From: Acidobacteriaceae bacterium
GTDB lineage: Bacteria > Acidobacteriota > Terriglobia > Bryobacterales > Bryobacteraceae
Direction: 5' to 3'
Assembly (NCBI GenBank): GCA_903970405.1
Contig: CAJCIT010000161.1
Coordinates: forward strand, 1-64,000
Length of the DNA: 64,000 bases
Both the position numbers and the translations under genes were made by a program. Positions 34,482-42,394 of this stretch are shown here, piece after piece (position 1 is the stretch's first letter; every line of letters starts with the position of its first letter). The notes beneath the pieces are model-generated. The model made no database searches. It was not told the DNA's origin and saw only the letters and a program-made list of their open reading frames with translations.

Positions 34482-34949
34482 ATGCCCCTGTACGAATATC
34501 TCTGCGACAACTGCAGCGAGAAATTCGAAGTCATTCAGAAGTTTGTTGACGCGCCTCTGACGGTGCATGAGAAGTGCGGGGGTGGTCCTGTCCATCGCCT
34601 GCTCTCAGCCCCGGCGCTGCAGTTCAAAGGCAGCGGCTTCTACATTACCGACTACAAGAGCGGGAGTTCCCAGGGCAGCGCGGCGGGTTCGAACGGCGGC
34701 TCGACGTCTGGAGGAAGCGACTCTGGCGGGTCCGATGGCAAGGCCGCTTCAGGAGACAAATCTTCAGGAGAAAAGTCGTCCACCGGCGAGAGGTCTTCCT
34801 CCGGCGAGAAGTCTTCCTCGGGTGAGAAGTCCGGCGATTCAGGCGGCAAGAAGGAGTCGAAATCCGACTCTGGCGGCAAATCCGACACCTCCAGCAACAA
34901 ATCTGCGCCGGCAAGCTCCACTTCTCCCTCGTCATCTGATAAAAAGTAA
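34482..34949 (+). CDS. FmdB/Zinc-ribbon_8 family protein with a Ser-rich tail
   Basis: Protein of 155 aa. The first 60 residues are the FmdB-type zinc ribbon (MPLYEYLCDNCSEKFEV). The second metal knuckle is HEKCGG, so one usual Cys is replaced by His. After SAPALQFKGSGFYITDY the protein becomes a long disordered tail of Ser, Gly, Lys and Asp with repeats of SSGEK. Such proteins are putative regulators of amidase or formamidase operons, on weak evidence. It starts 7 bp after the S41-like gene. Confidence 0.85.
   Translation: MPLYEYLCDNCSEKFEVIQKFVDAPLTVHEKCGGGPVHRLLSAPALQFKGSGFYITDYKSGSSQGSAAGSNGGSTSGGSDSGGSDGKAASGDKSSGEKSSTGERSSSGEKSSSGEKSGDSGGKKESKSDSGGKSDTSSNKSAPASSTSPSSSDKK
34761..34829 (+). 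repeat. degenerate 18-bp tandem repeat inside the FmdB tail
   Basis: Three 18-bp units and one shorter unit, each encoding S-S-x-G-E-K/R, follow each other (consensus TCTTCCTCCGGCGAGAAG). The units differ mostly at third positions, so the repeat is old or under protein-level constraint. Confidence 0.6.
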
Positions 34950-34953
34950 ACGA

Positions 34954-36309
34954 ATGACTACAAGACGCCAGTTCCTCGGGACGGCAGCGGCTACGGCCGG
35001 TCTGGGGGCGCCGCTTCTTGCCGCGCAAGCAGCGCTTCCCGAGAAGAAAACCTCCGCCAACGACAAGATACACATTGCCCTCATCGGTTGCGGCGGCATG
35101 GGCCAAGGCGATGCGCACACGTCGACCTCCACTGGGCTCACCAAAATCGTAGCCGCCTGCGATTGCTACGACGGCCGCCTGGAGCACATGAAAGAGCAGT
35201 ACGGGCGCGACATTTTCACGACCCGCAACTACGAGGAGATCCTGGCCCGCCCGGACATTGACGCAGTGCTGATCGGAACGCCTGACCACTGGCACCAGAA
35301 GATCAGCGTGGACGCGATGAACGCCAAGAAGGATGTCTACTGCGAGAAGCCGATGGTGCAGCACGTCGACGATGGCATGGCGGTGGTGGAGGCCCAGCAT
35401 AAGACCGGGCGCATCTTCCAGGTGGGTAGCCAGCGCGTCAGCAGCGTGATCTACAGGAAGGCGCAGGAGATCTTCCGCAGCGGCCAGATTGGCGAGTTGA
35501 TGATGGTGGAGGCCTGGTGGGACCGCAACTCAGCCGTGGGCGCGTGGGAATACGCCGTTCCGCCCGACGCCGATCCAAGCAGCACCTGCGATTGGGATCG
35601 TTTCCAGGGGCGCGCTCCGAAGACGGCGTGGGACGCCCACCGATTCTTCCGCTGGCGCTGTTACCGGGACTACGGCACCGGCGTTGCCGGCGACCTGTTC
35701 GTTCACCTGTTCAGCGGGCTGCACTTCATCACCAGCTCCACGGGACCGACGCGCGCTTTTGCCACCGGCGGGCTGCGCTTCTGGGACGACGGCCGCGACG
35801 TGCCGGACGTGCTGCTGGGTTTGTTCGATTATCCGAAGACCGCCGCGCACCCGGCCTTCAACCTGGTGCTGAGGGTGAACTTCGTCAGCGGAGCTGAAGA
35901 GAGTTCGGGCTTCCGTTTTGTTGGCAGCGAGGGCATTATGACGGTGGGCGGCACGGTGACGCTCTCAAAGCAACCGGCCGAGAGGGGTCCCGGCTACAGC
36001 ATCGATACGTTTACGAATGCGATGCAGGCGCGCATCAAGGCGGGCTACGAAGCGAAATATCCGCCCGCGCCGCATACGCCCGCGGGCATGGGCGCCAACG
36101 TGGAGACGGTGTTCCGCGCGCCGCACGGCTATAGCGACCATTACGACCACCACCTGAACTTTGCCCAATCCATCCGTTCCCGCAAGCCGCTAGTGGAAGA
36201 CGCGGTTTTTGGCTTCCGGGCCGCCGGACCGGCCCTGCTTTCCAACATGAGCTACTTCGAAGGCCATCCAGTGGAATGGGATCCGATCGCGATGAAGTTG
36301 AAAGCCTAG
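34954..36309 (+). CDS. Gfo/Idh/MocA-family oxidoreductase, Tat-exported
   Basis: NAD(P)-dependent sugar-type oxidoreductase of 451 aa. It begins with a Tat signal (TTRRQFLGTAAATAGLGAPL). The Rossmann motif is IALIGCGGMGQGD, with the family signature CEKPM in VYCEKPMVQ. Downstream motifs shared with its neighbour are YGTGVAGDLFVHL and GRDVPDVLLG. Tat export would allow it to fold with its nucleotide before secretion. It probably acts on a sugar or inositol derivative, but the substrate is unknown. A close paralogue follows 10 bp later. Confidence 0.9.
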   Translation: MTTRRQFLGTAAATAGLGAPLLAAQAALPEKKTSANDKIHIALIGCGGMGQGDAHTSTSTGLTKIVAACDCYDGRLEHMKEQYGRDIFTTRNYEEILARPDIDAVLIGTPDHWHQKISVDAMNAKKDVYCEKPMVQHVDDGMAVVEAQHKTGRIFQVGSQRVSSVIYRKAQEIFRSGQIGELMMVEAWWDRNSAVGAWEYAVPPDADPSSTCDWDRFQGRAPKTAWDAHRFFRWRCYRDYGTGVAGDLFVHLFSGLHFITSSTGPTRAFATGGLRFWDDGRDVPDVLLGLFDYPKTAAHPAFNLVLRVNFVSGAEESSGFRFVGSEGIMTVGGTVTLSKQPAERGPGYSIDTFTNAMQARIKAGYEAKYPPAPHTPAGMGANVETVFRAPHGYSDHYDHHLNFAQSIRSRKPLVEDAVFGFRAAGPALLSNMSYFEGHPVEWDPIAMKLKA

Positions 36310-36319
36310 GGAGCCGCAT

Positions 36320-37570
36320 ATGTTTGGAGCTAACGACAAAATTCAGATCGCCATCATCGGCGCAGGCGGCATGGGCCAAGGGGATACAAAACTTGCCACC
36401 TCCCTTCCGGGAGTGAAGTGCGTGGCGGCCTGCGACCTCTATACGGGGCGGCTGGACCACATGAAAGAGACGTACGGGAAGGATCTCTTCACCACGCGCG
36501 ATTACCGTGAAGTTCTCGAGCGGCCTGACATCGATTCAGTGATCGTCGCGACGCCCGACCATTGGCATTCGCGCATCTCGATCGATGCCATGAATGCGGG
36601 CAAGCACGTCTACTGCGAGAAGCCGATGGTGCACGCCATTGAAGAAGGCGCGGCGGTGATTGAGGCGCAGAGCAAGAGCGGCAAGGTGTTTCAGGTGGGC
36701 AGCCAATATCGCAGCTCGCTGATGTACCAGAAGGCGCACGAGCTGTATGAGGCGAAGACCATCGGGAAGCTGAACATGGTGGAAGCTTGGCTCGACCGGA
36801 ACACGGCCCAGGGCGCCTGGGAATATACGATTCCGCCTGATGCGAACCCGATGACAGTGGATTGGGATCGGTTCCTGGGGAATGCGCCGAAGCGGCCGTT
36901 CGACTCGACGCGTTTCTTCCGGTGGCGCAATTTCCAGGACTACGGTACGGGCGTGGCGGGCGATCTCTTCGTACACCTGCTGACCGGTCTGCATACCGTC
37001 ACGGGGTCGATGGGCCCTACGCGCATATACGCGACGGGTGGCCTGCGCTACTGGACGCACGACCGCGATGTGCCGGATGTGATGCTGGCCACGATGGATT
37101 ATCCGGAGAGCGATGCGCATCCAGCGTTCAACTTGATTCTGAGGGTGAATTTCAAATCGGGTGTGGATGAATCGTTCGGCGTGCGGTTTGTGGGAAGCGA
37201 TGGGTCCATGACTGCGAGTTTCACGACATTGAAAGTGAACCGCGTTCCGCGGCCCGACGAGTTCGATTACACAATCGGCTCATTCGCGCAGAAAACCCAA
37301 CAGGAGATGACGCAAGCGTGGAACGCGAAGCACGCACCCACCACGGTAGCCACTCTGAAGCCTCAGGACGACTTGGTGTTCACCACTGAGAACACGGCGC
37401 ACCTGGAGCATCACCGCGCGTTCTACACATCGATCCGCGATGGCAAGCCGTCCATTGAGGATGCAAGCTTCGGACTCCGCGCCGCCGGCCCGGCGCTGCT
37501 GACCAATGAGAGCTACTTCAAGAAAAAAGTTTGCGGCTGGGATCCGGTGGCGATGAAGGAAAAAGCGTAA
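36320..37570 (+). CDS. Gfo/Idh/MocA-family oxidoreductase, paralogue without signal
   Basis: Oxidoreductase of 416 aa, a tandem paralogue of the preceding gene. It starts almost at the Rossmann fold (NDKIQIAIIGAGGMGQGD) and has no signal peptide. CEKPMVHAIEEGAAVIEAQ, DYGTGVAGDLFVHLLTGLHT and DRDVPDVMLATMDYP match its neighbour closely. The missing Tat signal suggests either cytoplasmic duty or export as a complex with the first protein. Confidence 0.9.
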   Translation: MFGANDKIQIAIIGAGGMGQGDTKLATSLPGVKCVAACDLYTGRLDHMKETYGKDLFTTRDYREVLERPDIDSVIVATPDHWHSRISIDAMNAGKHVYCEKPMVHAIEEGAAVIEAQSKSGKVFQVGSQYRSSLMYQKAHELYEAKTIGKLNMVEAWLDRNTAQGAWEYTIPPDANPMTVDWDRFLGNAPKRPFDSTRFFRWRNFQDYGTGVAGDLFVHLLTGLHTVTGSMGPTRIYATGGLRYWTHDRDVPDVMLATMDYPESDAHPAFNLILRVNFKSGVDESFGVRFVGSDGSMTASFTTLKVNRVPRPDEFDYTIGSFAQKTQQEMTQAWNAKHAPTTVATLKPQDDLVFTTENTAHLEHHRAFYTSIRDGKPSIEDASFGLRAAGPALLTNESYFKKKVCGWDPVAMKEKA

Positions 37571-39340: not shown

Positions 39341-40372
39341 CTACTGTTTTGCGGCCCGCACCCGGTCCAGAGGCAGCACCTTAAGCTTCCACGAAACGGG
39401 AACGGTCTCAGGCAGGAAGCAGGTACGGTCATCGCAGGCCTGATACCGGAACGTCCCGGAAAGTATCAGTGAGCCGCCCGCGTCGAGAATGGCCTTAATC
39501 TCAGTTGGGTTTCCGATCACGACTGTGCGCACGAGCCTGACTTGGCCTTGAAAGACTGGCACGGTTTCGTGAATGGCTTCCATCCGCAGTAACGCGGAGA
39601 CTGGGTATTCGGCCGGCCCAATGGCCGCGCCGGGCGTCTGCTCCATCGTCCAGTCAATTGGAATGTAGCCAGTGACACCAGGCGCGTAGACATGCATGTT
39701 TGGCGGAAGGCTCAATTCAAGGGCGATGAAGATTTTCTGGCCTGTAGCAACCTCTTCGTCGCTCGAGGCGGTGGCCAGTTGGAGGTGTTTCGCGGCGACG
39801 GTTGTGTGCGGTCCGGCCGCGGAGAGCCCAAAGCTGCGCATTAGTATCAAGGCGGCCGTATCGCGCTGCTTGAAGTCATCTTCGAAATACTTGGCGATTA
39901 CCCGGCCTTGGGCGTCCAAGACGTAGACGCCGGGATAAGGCACGCCATAGGCGGGCGAGTTCTTTTCGACCGTGCCGTTGAGGATTCCGTACCGGCGGAT
40001 GATGGCCGACTGGGGATCGGAGAGCAGCGGGAATGTAATGTGCTGCCGGTCTGCGAAGGCTTTGAGAACTGCCACGCTGTCATAACTGATGGCGGCCAAG
40101 CCGAGGCCCTCCTGCTGAATTCGGCGGCGGTTCTGTTCCAACTCGACCAGTTGGGCTTTACAAAAGGGTCACCAATCGGCGGAACGGAAAAAGACCAGCA
40201 GGCCGCCCTTCGGTCCAAGGACCGAGCGAAGGGTTTGCTCCTGGCCATTTTGGTCTGAGGCGCGAAAATCCTCCACCCGCTGACCGACAGCAGGACCGGT
40301 GGGTATTTGCGCGGCGAGGGCCGTCACTAAGAGGACCGGGGCGAGGATCGCGACTCGTTTCATCGAATTCAT
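39341..40372 (-). CDS. probable selenoprotein: exported redoxin with UxxC plus DsbD-N-like domain
   Basis: One gene of 343 codons read through an in-frame UGA. It has a signal peptide (MNSMKRVAILAPVLLVTALA) and an AhpC/TSA-like thioredoxin fold. The redox motif reads FFRSADW-U68-PFC71-KAQLVELE, where relatives have CxxC. The C-terminal part (about 190-335) resembles the DsbD N-terminal domain (LPPNMHVYAPGV, TFRYQACDDRTCFLPETV). The frame stays open for 275 codons after the UGA, and a SECIS-like hairpin follows it directly. The ATG overlaps the GlcD-like stop in an ATGA. Likely role: periplasmic thiol or peroxide chemistry. The alternative, a Cys-to-stop mutation, is less likely. Confidence 0.82.
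40138..40154 (-). promoter_or_regulatory. SECIS-like hairpin
   Basis: On the minus strand, CCAACT-GGTCG-AGTTGG makes a perfect 6-bp stem with a 5-nt loop. The loop starts 21 nt after the UGA at 40171-40169. Known bacterial SECIS elements sit inside the coding region about 16-37 nt past the UGA and need a G near the start of the apical loop; the E. coli fdhF loop also contains GGUC. Confidence 0.7.
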
Positions 40373-41793
40373 AACTCCATCTTCGCCGGTTGCCGAATCT
40401 CCAGGCACCCTTTCCCTGTGGGCAGAACCTTTCCCGGATTCAGGCTACAGTGCGGATCGAACGCCATCTTGATGCGGCGAATCATATCGAGTGAGTCATC
40501 GTCGAACTGGTGCGCCATCAGCTCCATCTTCTCCATGCCGACGCCATGTTCGCCGGTAATGGATCCTCCCACCGAGATGCAAAAATCCAGAATCTCCTCG
40601 CCGGCCAGTTGAGCGTTGCGCAAGTCGCCTTCCTTGCGCGGATCGAACGGAATGATGGGATGCATATTCCCGTCTCCCGCGTGAAAGATGTTGCTAATGG
40701 CAATGCCTCGGCGCTCGCCGATGGCGGCGATAGCTTTAAGCGTCGGGGCGATTTGCGTGCGCGGGACAACGCCATCTTGAACATAGTAAGTGGGGGTGAT
40801 GCGGCCGATGGCGCCAAAGGCGTTCTTGCGGCCCTTCCACAACAGGGCGCGTTCCTCTTCGGTCTTGGCGATGCGGAATTCGGTGGCGCCGCAGTGGAGG
40901 CACACTTTGTCAATCTGCGCGGTCTGCTCCTCCACTTCTTCCTTGAGACCCTCCACCTCAATCAGCAGCACCGCCGCGGCATCCATCGGATAACCCGCGT
41001 GAGTCGCCTCCTCCACCATGCGCAGCATCGGCCCGTCCAGCATTTCCACGGCGACAGGCAGCAGCGATCGCGCGGTCAGTTCGCCTACCGTATCGCCGGC
41101 GCACTCAGCCGCCCCATACACGGCGAGCATGGTTTTGACAGCTTCCGGCTGGCGCATCAGGCGCAGCCCGATTTCCGTTACCAGAGCCATGGTTCCTTCG
41201 GAGCCGGTGAGCAAGCCCGTCAGGTCATAACCGGGCAAATCCAGTTCCTTCCGGCCCAGGCGCATCACGGAACCGTCAGGCAGTACGGCTTCCAGGCTGA
41301 CGACGTGGTTGGTGGTGACACCATAGGCCAGCGTGTGCGGGCCGCCGGCGTTTTCCGCCACGTTGCCGCCGATTGTGCAGGCGCGGGCACTGGATGGATC
41401 GGGAGCGTAAAAATAGCCGTATGATTTGACGGCTTGCGTTACATCCAAATTCACGACGCCCGGCTGCACAATAGCGCGCTCATTCTCAATGTCGATCTCA
41501 AGAATGCGGTTCATGCGCGAAAAAGAGATCACCACTCCGTTGTCGCGGGGAATGGAGCCGCCACTCAATCCCGTGCCTGCGCCGCGTCCCACAATCGGCA
41601 CGCGCGCTTCGCGGGCCTTCAGAACGATGAAGACGACGTCTTCGGTGGTGCGTGGAAAGACCACCGCGGCGGGTCGCGCTTTGTCGACGCCGCCATCGTA
41701 TTCATAGAGGGTTAGGTCCTCCGGGCGCCAGAGGACAGCCCCCTTGCCCAGTTGCGCTTCAAACTGCTCAATGAGCGTCTTGGTCAGCGGCAT
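40369..41793 (-). CDS. FAD-binding oxidase, GlcD-like
   Basis: FAD-linked 2-hydroxyacid oxidase/dehydrogenase subunit of 474 aa. The FAD_binding_4 domain has VPIVGRGAGTGLSGGSIP and GGNVAENAGGPHTLAYGVT. The FAD-oxidase C-terminal domain has NIFHAGDGNMHPIIPFD and the closing SITGEHGVGMEKMEL. It probably oxidises glycolate or D-lactate. The GlcE and GlcF partners are not adjacent. It lies 31 bp after the TlpA-like gene and overlaps the selenoprotein start, so the three form an operon. Confidence 0.92.
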   Translation of the reverse strand: MPLTKTLIEQFEAQLGKGAVLWRPEDLTLYEYDGGVDKARPAAVVFPRTTEDVVFIVLKAREARVPIVGRGAGTGLSGGSIPRDNGVVISFSRMNRILEIDIENERAIVQPGVVNLDVTQAVKSYGYFYAPDPSSARACTIGGNVAENAGGPHTLAYGVTTNHVVSLEAVLPDGSVMRLGRKELDLPGYDLTGLLTGSEGTMALVTEIGLRLMRQPEAVKTMLAVYGAAECAGDTVGELTARSLLPVAVEMLDGPMLRMVEEATHAGYPMDAAAVLLIEVEGLKEEVEEQTAQIDKVCLHCGATEFRIAKTEEERALLWKGRKNAFGAIGRITPTYYVQDGVVPRTQIAPTLKAIAAIGERRGIAISNIFHAGDGNMHPIIPFDPRKEGDLRNAQLAGEEILDFCISVGGSITGEHGVGMEKMELMAHQFDDDSLDMIRRIKMAFDPHCSLNPGKVLPTGKGCLEIRQPAKMEL

Positions 41794-41824: not shown

Positions 41825-42394
41825 CTACAGCAAGCTCTTCACGTACTGCACCATGTCATCGCCCATCCAGTTCTGCTCGCTGATCAGCTTCCTGGCTACC
41901 TTGCCATCTTTAATGATGTAGCTTTCCGGGTACTGGAAGGTGCCGTATTCAGCACTGATGTCAGTGGAGGGATCTCGATAAGTGTCGAAGCCGACCCCGA
42001 AGCGATTGAGGAACGTCTTGTACTTCTGTTCGTTCTTATCCACGCTGACCGCGACTACCACCACGCCCTGATCCTTGAACTGCTTCTGAAATGCGTCGAG
42101 CGACGGAATCTCGCGCACGCAGGGGGCGCACCAGGTGGCCCAGAAGTTCAGGACCAGCACTTTCCCGCCGAAATTCGTGGCCGATACTTCGCGCCCCTGC
42201 TCGGTCTTGAAGTGGAACGGGGGCGCCGCCTCGCCCTCGCGGGCAGTGGAATCATGCAGATTCGAAACAACGATTCCGAGGAAACCGGCGGTCAGCAGGG
42301 CCAGCAGGCCGATGAGCAACTTGTTCGTATTCACGGGAATGGCCAGCCCAGAGGCGTTCCCCGGCGCTAATTTAAGAGTATCCGATTGCTTCAT
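41825..42394 (-). CDS. TlpA/ResA-like thioredoxin, membrane-anchored
   Basis: Periplasmic thioredoxin-fold protein of 189 aa with an N-terminal anchor (NKLLIGLLALLTAGFLGIVV). The active site is CxxC in FWATWCAPCVREIPSL, with a cis-Pro region near FQYPESYIIKDG. It probably reduces disulfides outside the membrane and may feed electrons to the Sec-containing redoxin encoded in the same operon. The start at 42394 is only 20 bp from the divergent PTPS ATG; GTG 42334, directly before the anchor, is an alternative. Confidence 0.9.
   Translation of the reverse strand: MKQSDTLKLAPGNASGLAIPVNTNKLLIGLLALLTAGFLGIVVSNLHDSTAREGEAAPPFHFKTEQGREVSATNFGGKVLVLNFWATWCAPCVREIPSLDAFQKQFKDQGVVVVAVSVDKNEQKYKTFLNRFGVGFDTYRDPSTDISAEYGTFQYPESYIIKDGKVARKLISEQNWMGDDMVQYVKSLL

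Follow-up and report, generated by a model that had tools for sequence, protein, structure and literature searches.

The locus and the encoded protein

In the window, i.e., the whole stretch of 64,000 nucleotides analysed here, a reading frame of 343 residues lies on the minus strand (39341..40372), running from an ATG at 40372-40370 to a TAG stop at 39343-39341 and interrupted once, at codon 68 (40171-40169), by an in-frame TGA, which is preceded by 67 codons and followed by 275. With translation table 11 the locus is read as two separate ORFs, 40169-40408 and 39341-40141, and ordinary automatic annotation would cut the selenoprotein gene in half. Residues 1-22 (40307..40372) form a probable signal peptide, recognised by eye from a hydrophobic stretch rather than by a prediction program; residues 1-20 have low pLDDT in the structural model. 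The true start may be Met4, encoded by the second ATG at 40363.

The start of the gene overlaps (ATGA) the TGA stop of a FAD-linked oxidase gene on the same strand (40369..41793). Some 1.5 kb upstream of the gene for the selenoprotein, the window also contains a TlpA-like thiol oxidoreductase with ordinary Cys residues in its active site (CAPC; 41828-42394, minus strand). A synteny comparison found none of the neighbours, i.e., the FAD oxidase, glnA, TlpA and PTPS, beside the homologues, and thus no operon argument is made. Two adjoining genes of the Gfo/Idh/MocA oxidoreductase type are located on the plus strand (36320-37570 and 34567-36309); the larger frame (34567-36309) opens with a low-complexity stretch, followed by a Tat-like signal.

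The N-terminal domain (residues 29-167; 39872..40288, minus strand) is an AhpC-TSA/redoxin domain with the AhpE/Bcp fold and the active site DW-U-PFC; it matches PF00578 over residues 29-159 with 97.4 bits (E 7e-28), the UxxC site being UPFC. The resolving Cys71 of U-P-F-C (40160..40162) is invariant in both alignments, A1 and A2. The peroxiredoxin motif PxxxT/SxxC does not occur at the site, which reads F61..A65-D66-W67-U68, with no P at -7 and A at -3.

The C-terminal domain (residues 190-335; 39368..39805, minus strand) is of the DsbD N-terminal type (nDsbD). The DsbD_N match (PF11412, residues 208-323) reaches 24.1 bits against a cut-off of 25, and the same domain was found in 19/19 members tested. 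Cys313 (39434..39436) and Cys318 (39419..39421), the first and second residues of a YQAC-x4-C pair, are both invariant, in 71/71 and 65/65 sequences. An AlphaFold model built with 65 relatives had a pLDDT of 92.5 and a pTM of 0.87, and the best PDB matches of the whole model were AhpE/Bcp peroxiredoxins (5epf, 4x0x). When the PDB was searched by sequence profile, the C-terminal domain gave no match, and a fold comparison was needed: the domain modelled alone had a pLDDT of 94.2, and the top five Foldseek matches were DsbD N-domains (including 3pfu, 1l6p, 1vrs and 1jzd), with E values from 2e-5 to 8e-5 and TMt of 0.66-0.72. The source genome encodes one DsbD, of 648 aa and with the motif RYQACTEVKC, and hhalign aligned the C-terminal domain to the N-domain of this protein at 96%. 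No match to DsbD_TM or to the C-terminal thioredoxin domain was found in the 343-aa protein. The two-domain architecture, a redoxin followed by nDsbD, is highly probable.

A first-pass annotation of this DNA had placed the TGA at the first Cys of a redoxin CxxC, within a frame intact on both sides, and had expected gene callers to report two broken genes; its coordinates and codon counts were exact, and table 11 does yield two ORFs. The UxxC redoxin domain was also rightly recognised, but the second half of the protein, with its DsbD N-terminal-type domain, had been overlooked.

The in-frame UGA and the downstream hairpin

The source genome (5.45 Mb in 319 contigs, 91% complete) contains a tRNA-Sec with anticodon UCA, scoring 68.1 bits and above its cut-off, together with selA (511.4 bits), selB (336.6 bits) and selD (348.2 bits), all above the curated cut-offs. 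Another tRNA, L004, was called “Stop (TTA)”; its anticodon arm looks like that of a tRNA-Leu(UAA), the call being off by one base, and no UAA suppressor is therefore claimed.

Homologues were collected by searching 151 related genomes, reading 71 loci and scanning a set of named genomes. The 110 distinct sequences have TGA (95) or a Cys codon (15) in the column of codon 68 (40169..40171), and never Trp. The named hosts are Acidobacteriota (Bryobacterales, other Terriglobia and Vicinamibacteria), together with two or three odd bins, and a phylum-wide sample revealed the family in many further Acidobacteriota families. In almost all sequences the active site reads RSADW-[U/C]-P-[FYW]-C-K, and conservation at the protein level spans both halves, before and after the UGA. 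A second Sec paralogue, 39% identical, is present in the source genome itself (L020; G000:C256:996-2030); it has the site ADW-U-MYC and the same hairpin (CAA..UUG), and its relatives are found in G062 (UMYC) and G036 (UVYC). In four further loci (G127:C66, G140:C502, G120:C70 and G146:C115) the match is split in two around query residues 134-139, which probably reflects an insertion at this position.

A perfect 6-bp hairpin, CCAACU-GGUCG-AGUUGG (40138..40154, minus strand), starts 14 nt past the UGA. With its loop GGUCG at 20 nt from the UGA, it agrees with the bacterial SECIS model, i.e., a stem-loop with a G among the first two bases of the loop, located 16-37 nt from the UGA (PMC13188914). 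The loop GGUCG is one of several among the homologues, GU being the conserved core, and no match for the hairpin was found among the 4227 families of Rfam. The SECIS hairpin of E. coli fdhF has a bulged U, whereas the one described here has none; this and the lack of an Rfam match weigh against the selenocysteine reading.

Taken by itself, the hairpin is within chance: the local fold of the single sequence is no better than that of shuffled sequences (z -0.95), and a filter combining redox motif and hairpin passes 10 of the 186 TGA codons in the window that are open on both sides, so that motif-plus-hairpin evidence alone was not used. Across the homologues, the hairpin is far beyond chance. 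The 5-bp core stem is present in 92/95 UGA genes versus 2/15 Cys genes (p 2e-12), and the stem with the GU loop in 91/95 versus 0/15 (p 3e-15); in the first set of loci, the 66 with Sec have a mean predicted hairpin energy of -7.7 kcal/mol, compared with 0 for the five with Cys. The structure is kept in the Sec genes, where compensatory synonymous changes are observed, and has decayed in the Cys genes.

The central pair of the hairpin joins the third base of a Gln codon to the first base of a Leu codon. The two codons are CAA-UUG in 31 genes and CAG-CUG in 59, with the mixed forms in 1 and 2 (31:1:2:59); control Gln-Leu pairs that are equally spaced but lie in other parts of these genes are distributed 4:23:9:37, with no association, indicating that base composition is not the explanation of the covariation. 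On the protein tree each of the two codons changes 15 times, and the 8 independent pairs of changes on well-supported branches are all concordant (p 0.008); such concordant, paired synonymous changes show that selection acts on RNA pairing.

On comparison of these sequences, UGA 68 is almost certainly decoded as selenocysteine, the reading proposed in the first-pass annotation, since the machinery is present, the column is Sec or Cys, and the hairpin is kept in the Sec forms. The selA, selB, selD and tRNA-Sec genes that the annotation had proposed to look for were all found, so that the first of its two possible counter-indications, a genome lacking selB or tRNA-Sec, does not apply; the second, a UGA private to this genome with no hairpin conserved in relatives, is at variance with the 95 UGA homologues, the other 15 all having Cys, and with the hairpin kept in 91/95 UGA genes. 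Its description of a perfect 6-bp stem with a GGUCG loop 14 nt after the UGA was correct, and a loop starting with G does fit the SECIS model, but the exact GGUCG had been given too much weight, as only GU is conserved. The hairpin counts as evidence through its conservation in UGA genes, but not through the fold of the single sequence.

UGA read-through is known in bacteria, and the codon might accordingly have come to encode Trp or some other amino acid, or be read by a near-cognate tRNA without selenium; this is very improbable, however, as the homologues show Cys and never Trp, the neighbouring gene uses UGA as its stop, the genome has tRNA-Sec together with selA/selB/selD, and the hairpin covaries. 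A pseudogene or a sequencing error, with the UGA having arisen from a Cys codon in this genome alone, would account for the in-frame stop and the two separate ORFs, but it has next to no probability and is refuted by the homologues, which carry the same TGA in different genomes and assemblies and are conserved in both halves, and by the paralogue of the same genome, which has a TGA at the same site.

The five Cys members in the 71-row protein tree need five changes, indicating that a family with Sec acquired Cys on several occasions; on these sequences, replacement of Sec by Cys is counted at least five times. selA is absent from 3/4 genomes having only the Cys form (G088, G137 and G145) versus 3/59 Sec genomes (Fisher p 0.002). 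G018 is an exception, with selA present and yet the Cys form, while G103 contains selA plus both Sec and Cys copies. The Sec forms without a good selA match are those of G030, G040 and G071; G040 and G071 are incomplete assemblies, and G030 is reported as 99% complete, but 10% contaminated. The repeated switches from Sec to Cys, with decay of the hairpin, represent a natural experiment on SECIS requirements.

Proposed function of the two-domain selenoprotein

Sec decoding and the two-domain architecture, considered jointly, are very highly probable, and a mechanism may be proposed on this basis. UGA 68 would be read as Sec by SelB and Sec-tRNA(Sec), in a presumably SelB-dependent manner, under the direction of the hairpin 14 nt downstream, and the N-terminal hydrophobic stretch would lead to export of the selenoprotein. 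The N-terminal domain would act as a thiol-disulfide oxidoreductase of the peroxiredoxin/TlpA fold, with U-P-F-C as active site, while the C-terminal one, an nDsbD domain, brings a redox Cys pair of its own. Electrons could pass from cytoplasmic thioredoxin to the membrane protein DsbD and then to the Cys pair of the tethered nDsbD, which would in turn reduce the selenenylsulfide formed by Sec and Cys in the redoxin domain; the substrate of the latter may be a peroxide or a periplasmic protein in oxidised form, and reduction of peroxide and of a protein disulfide (or sulfenate) appear about equally likely. In E. coli, nDsbD domains hand electrons to periplasmic thioredoxin-fold proteins, and the fusion is thus most simply read as tying nDsbD permanently to a partner of this kind. 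The DsbD-type relay through the tethered nDsbD, which is drawn from domain homology, has about an even chance of being correct.

A competing view, somewhat less probable than an even chance but to be taken seriously, is that Sec is real while the nDsbD-like domain is no reductant, being instead on the substrate side or a docking module; the protein would then work as an oxidase/isomerase, or as a peroxidase that receives its electrons from another source. The nDsbD of E. coli DsbD interacts with several partners, the Pfam score of the domain in this sequence is just below the cut-off, and the relay is a proposal, all of which leave room for such a role. On the other hand, C313 and C318 are invariant in all members, as would be expected of a redox function more than of mere docking, and the genome encodes a full DsbD which could supply electrons to nDsbD. 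In the most far-reaching reading, the gene would belong to a distinct, unnamed selenoprotein family of Acidobacteriota, consisting of a redoxin with a tethered nDsbD, i.e., a self-contained, DsbD-coupled periplasmic selenoenzyme, whose Sec/Cys state tracks the gain or loss of the Sec machinery; this comprehensive description is plausible, with the balance for and against it level.

Relation to known selenoproteins and significance

Selenoproteins of the Prx-like UxxC (PF00578), or Redoxin family UxxC, class have already been listed (PMC13188914, PMC2398784). Like the protein described here, they have a peroxiredoxin-type domain with UxxC, a SECIS-like hairpin and Cys homologues; the present protein is in addition fused to an nDsbD domain and exported, an architecture that listed members may share. 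The family named Unknown_3 also combines a Prx-like domain containing Sec with a domain that bears Cys; however, comparison by description only indicates three Cys including a CxxC there, versus one C-x4-C pair here. The nearest curated NCBIfam model, the SelL-related redox protein (NF040769), covers the redoxin part only and scores 52.7 bits against a cut-off of 120; the present protein has one Sec (UPFC) rather than UxxU, and an extra domain.

With the AhpE/Bcp peroxiredoxins (5epf, 4x0x) the N-terminal domain shares the fold, but it lacks PxxxTxxC, and WUPFC resembles instead the WCxxC of TlpA and thioredoxins. With the DsbD N-terminal domain (PF11412; 3pfu, 1l6p, 1vrs) the C-terminal domain has in common the fold and the Cys pair, YQAC-x4-C being found also in the DsbD of the same genome; unlike in DsbD, it is attached to a Sec redoxin and not to a membrane domain.

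No NCBIfam model scored above its cut-off for the protein of the window, and a scan of 19 members, recorded in a table without cut-offs, revealed no model specific to the nDsbD-fusion family. A description of this family was not found in the literature on Acidobacteria, Solibacter and selenoproteins, the coverage of which was partial, so that a prior description of the fusion is possible. The Sec class is known (Prx-like UxxC), while its fusion with nDsbD forms a widespread and apparently unnamed two-domain family.

There is little literature on selenium use in Acidobacteriota, which are major soil bacteria. In a 2006 survey, the count of selenoproteins for the phylum was 4, whereas the nDsbD-fusion family alone gives 95 Sec genes, which automatic annotation would likewise break up, and the selenoproteome of Acidobacteriota looks much larger than that count. 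The fusion also suggests a route for a periplasmic selenium redox chemistry powered by DsbD. Redoxins that consist of a single domain and contain one in-frame TGA are likewise common across Acidobacteriota (e.g., G063:C497:25150-25602 and G083:C419:1746-2249).
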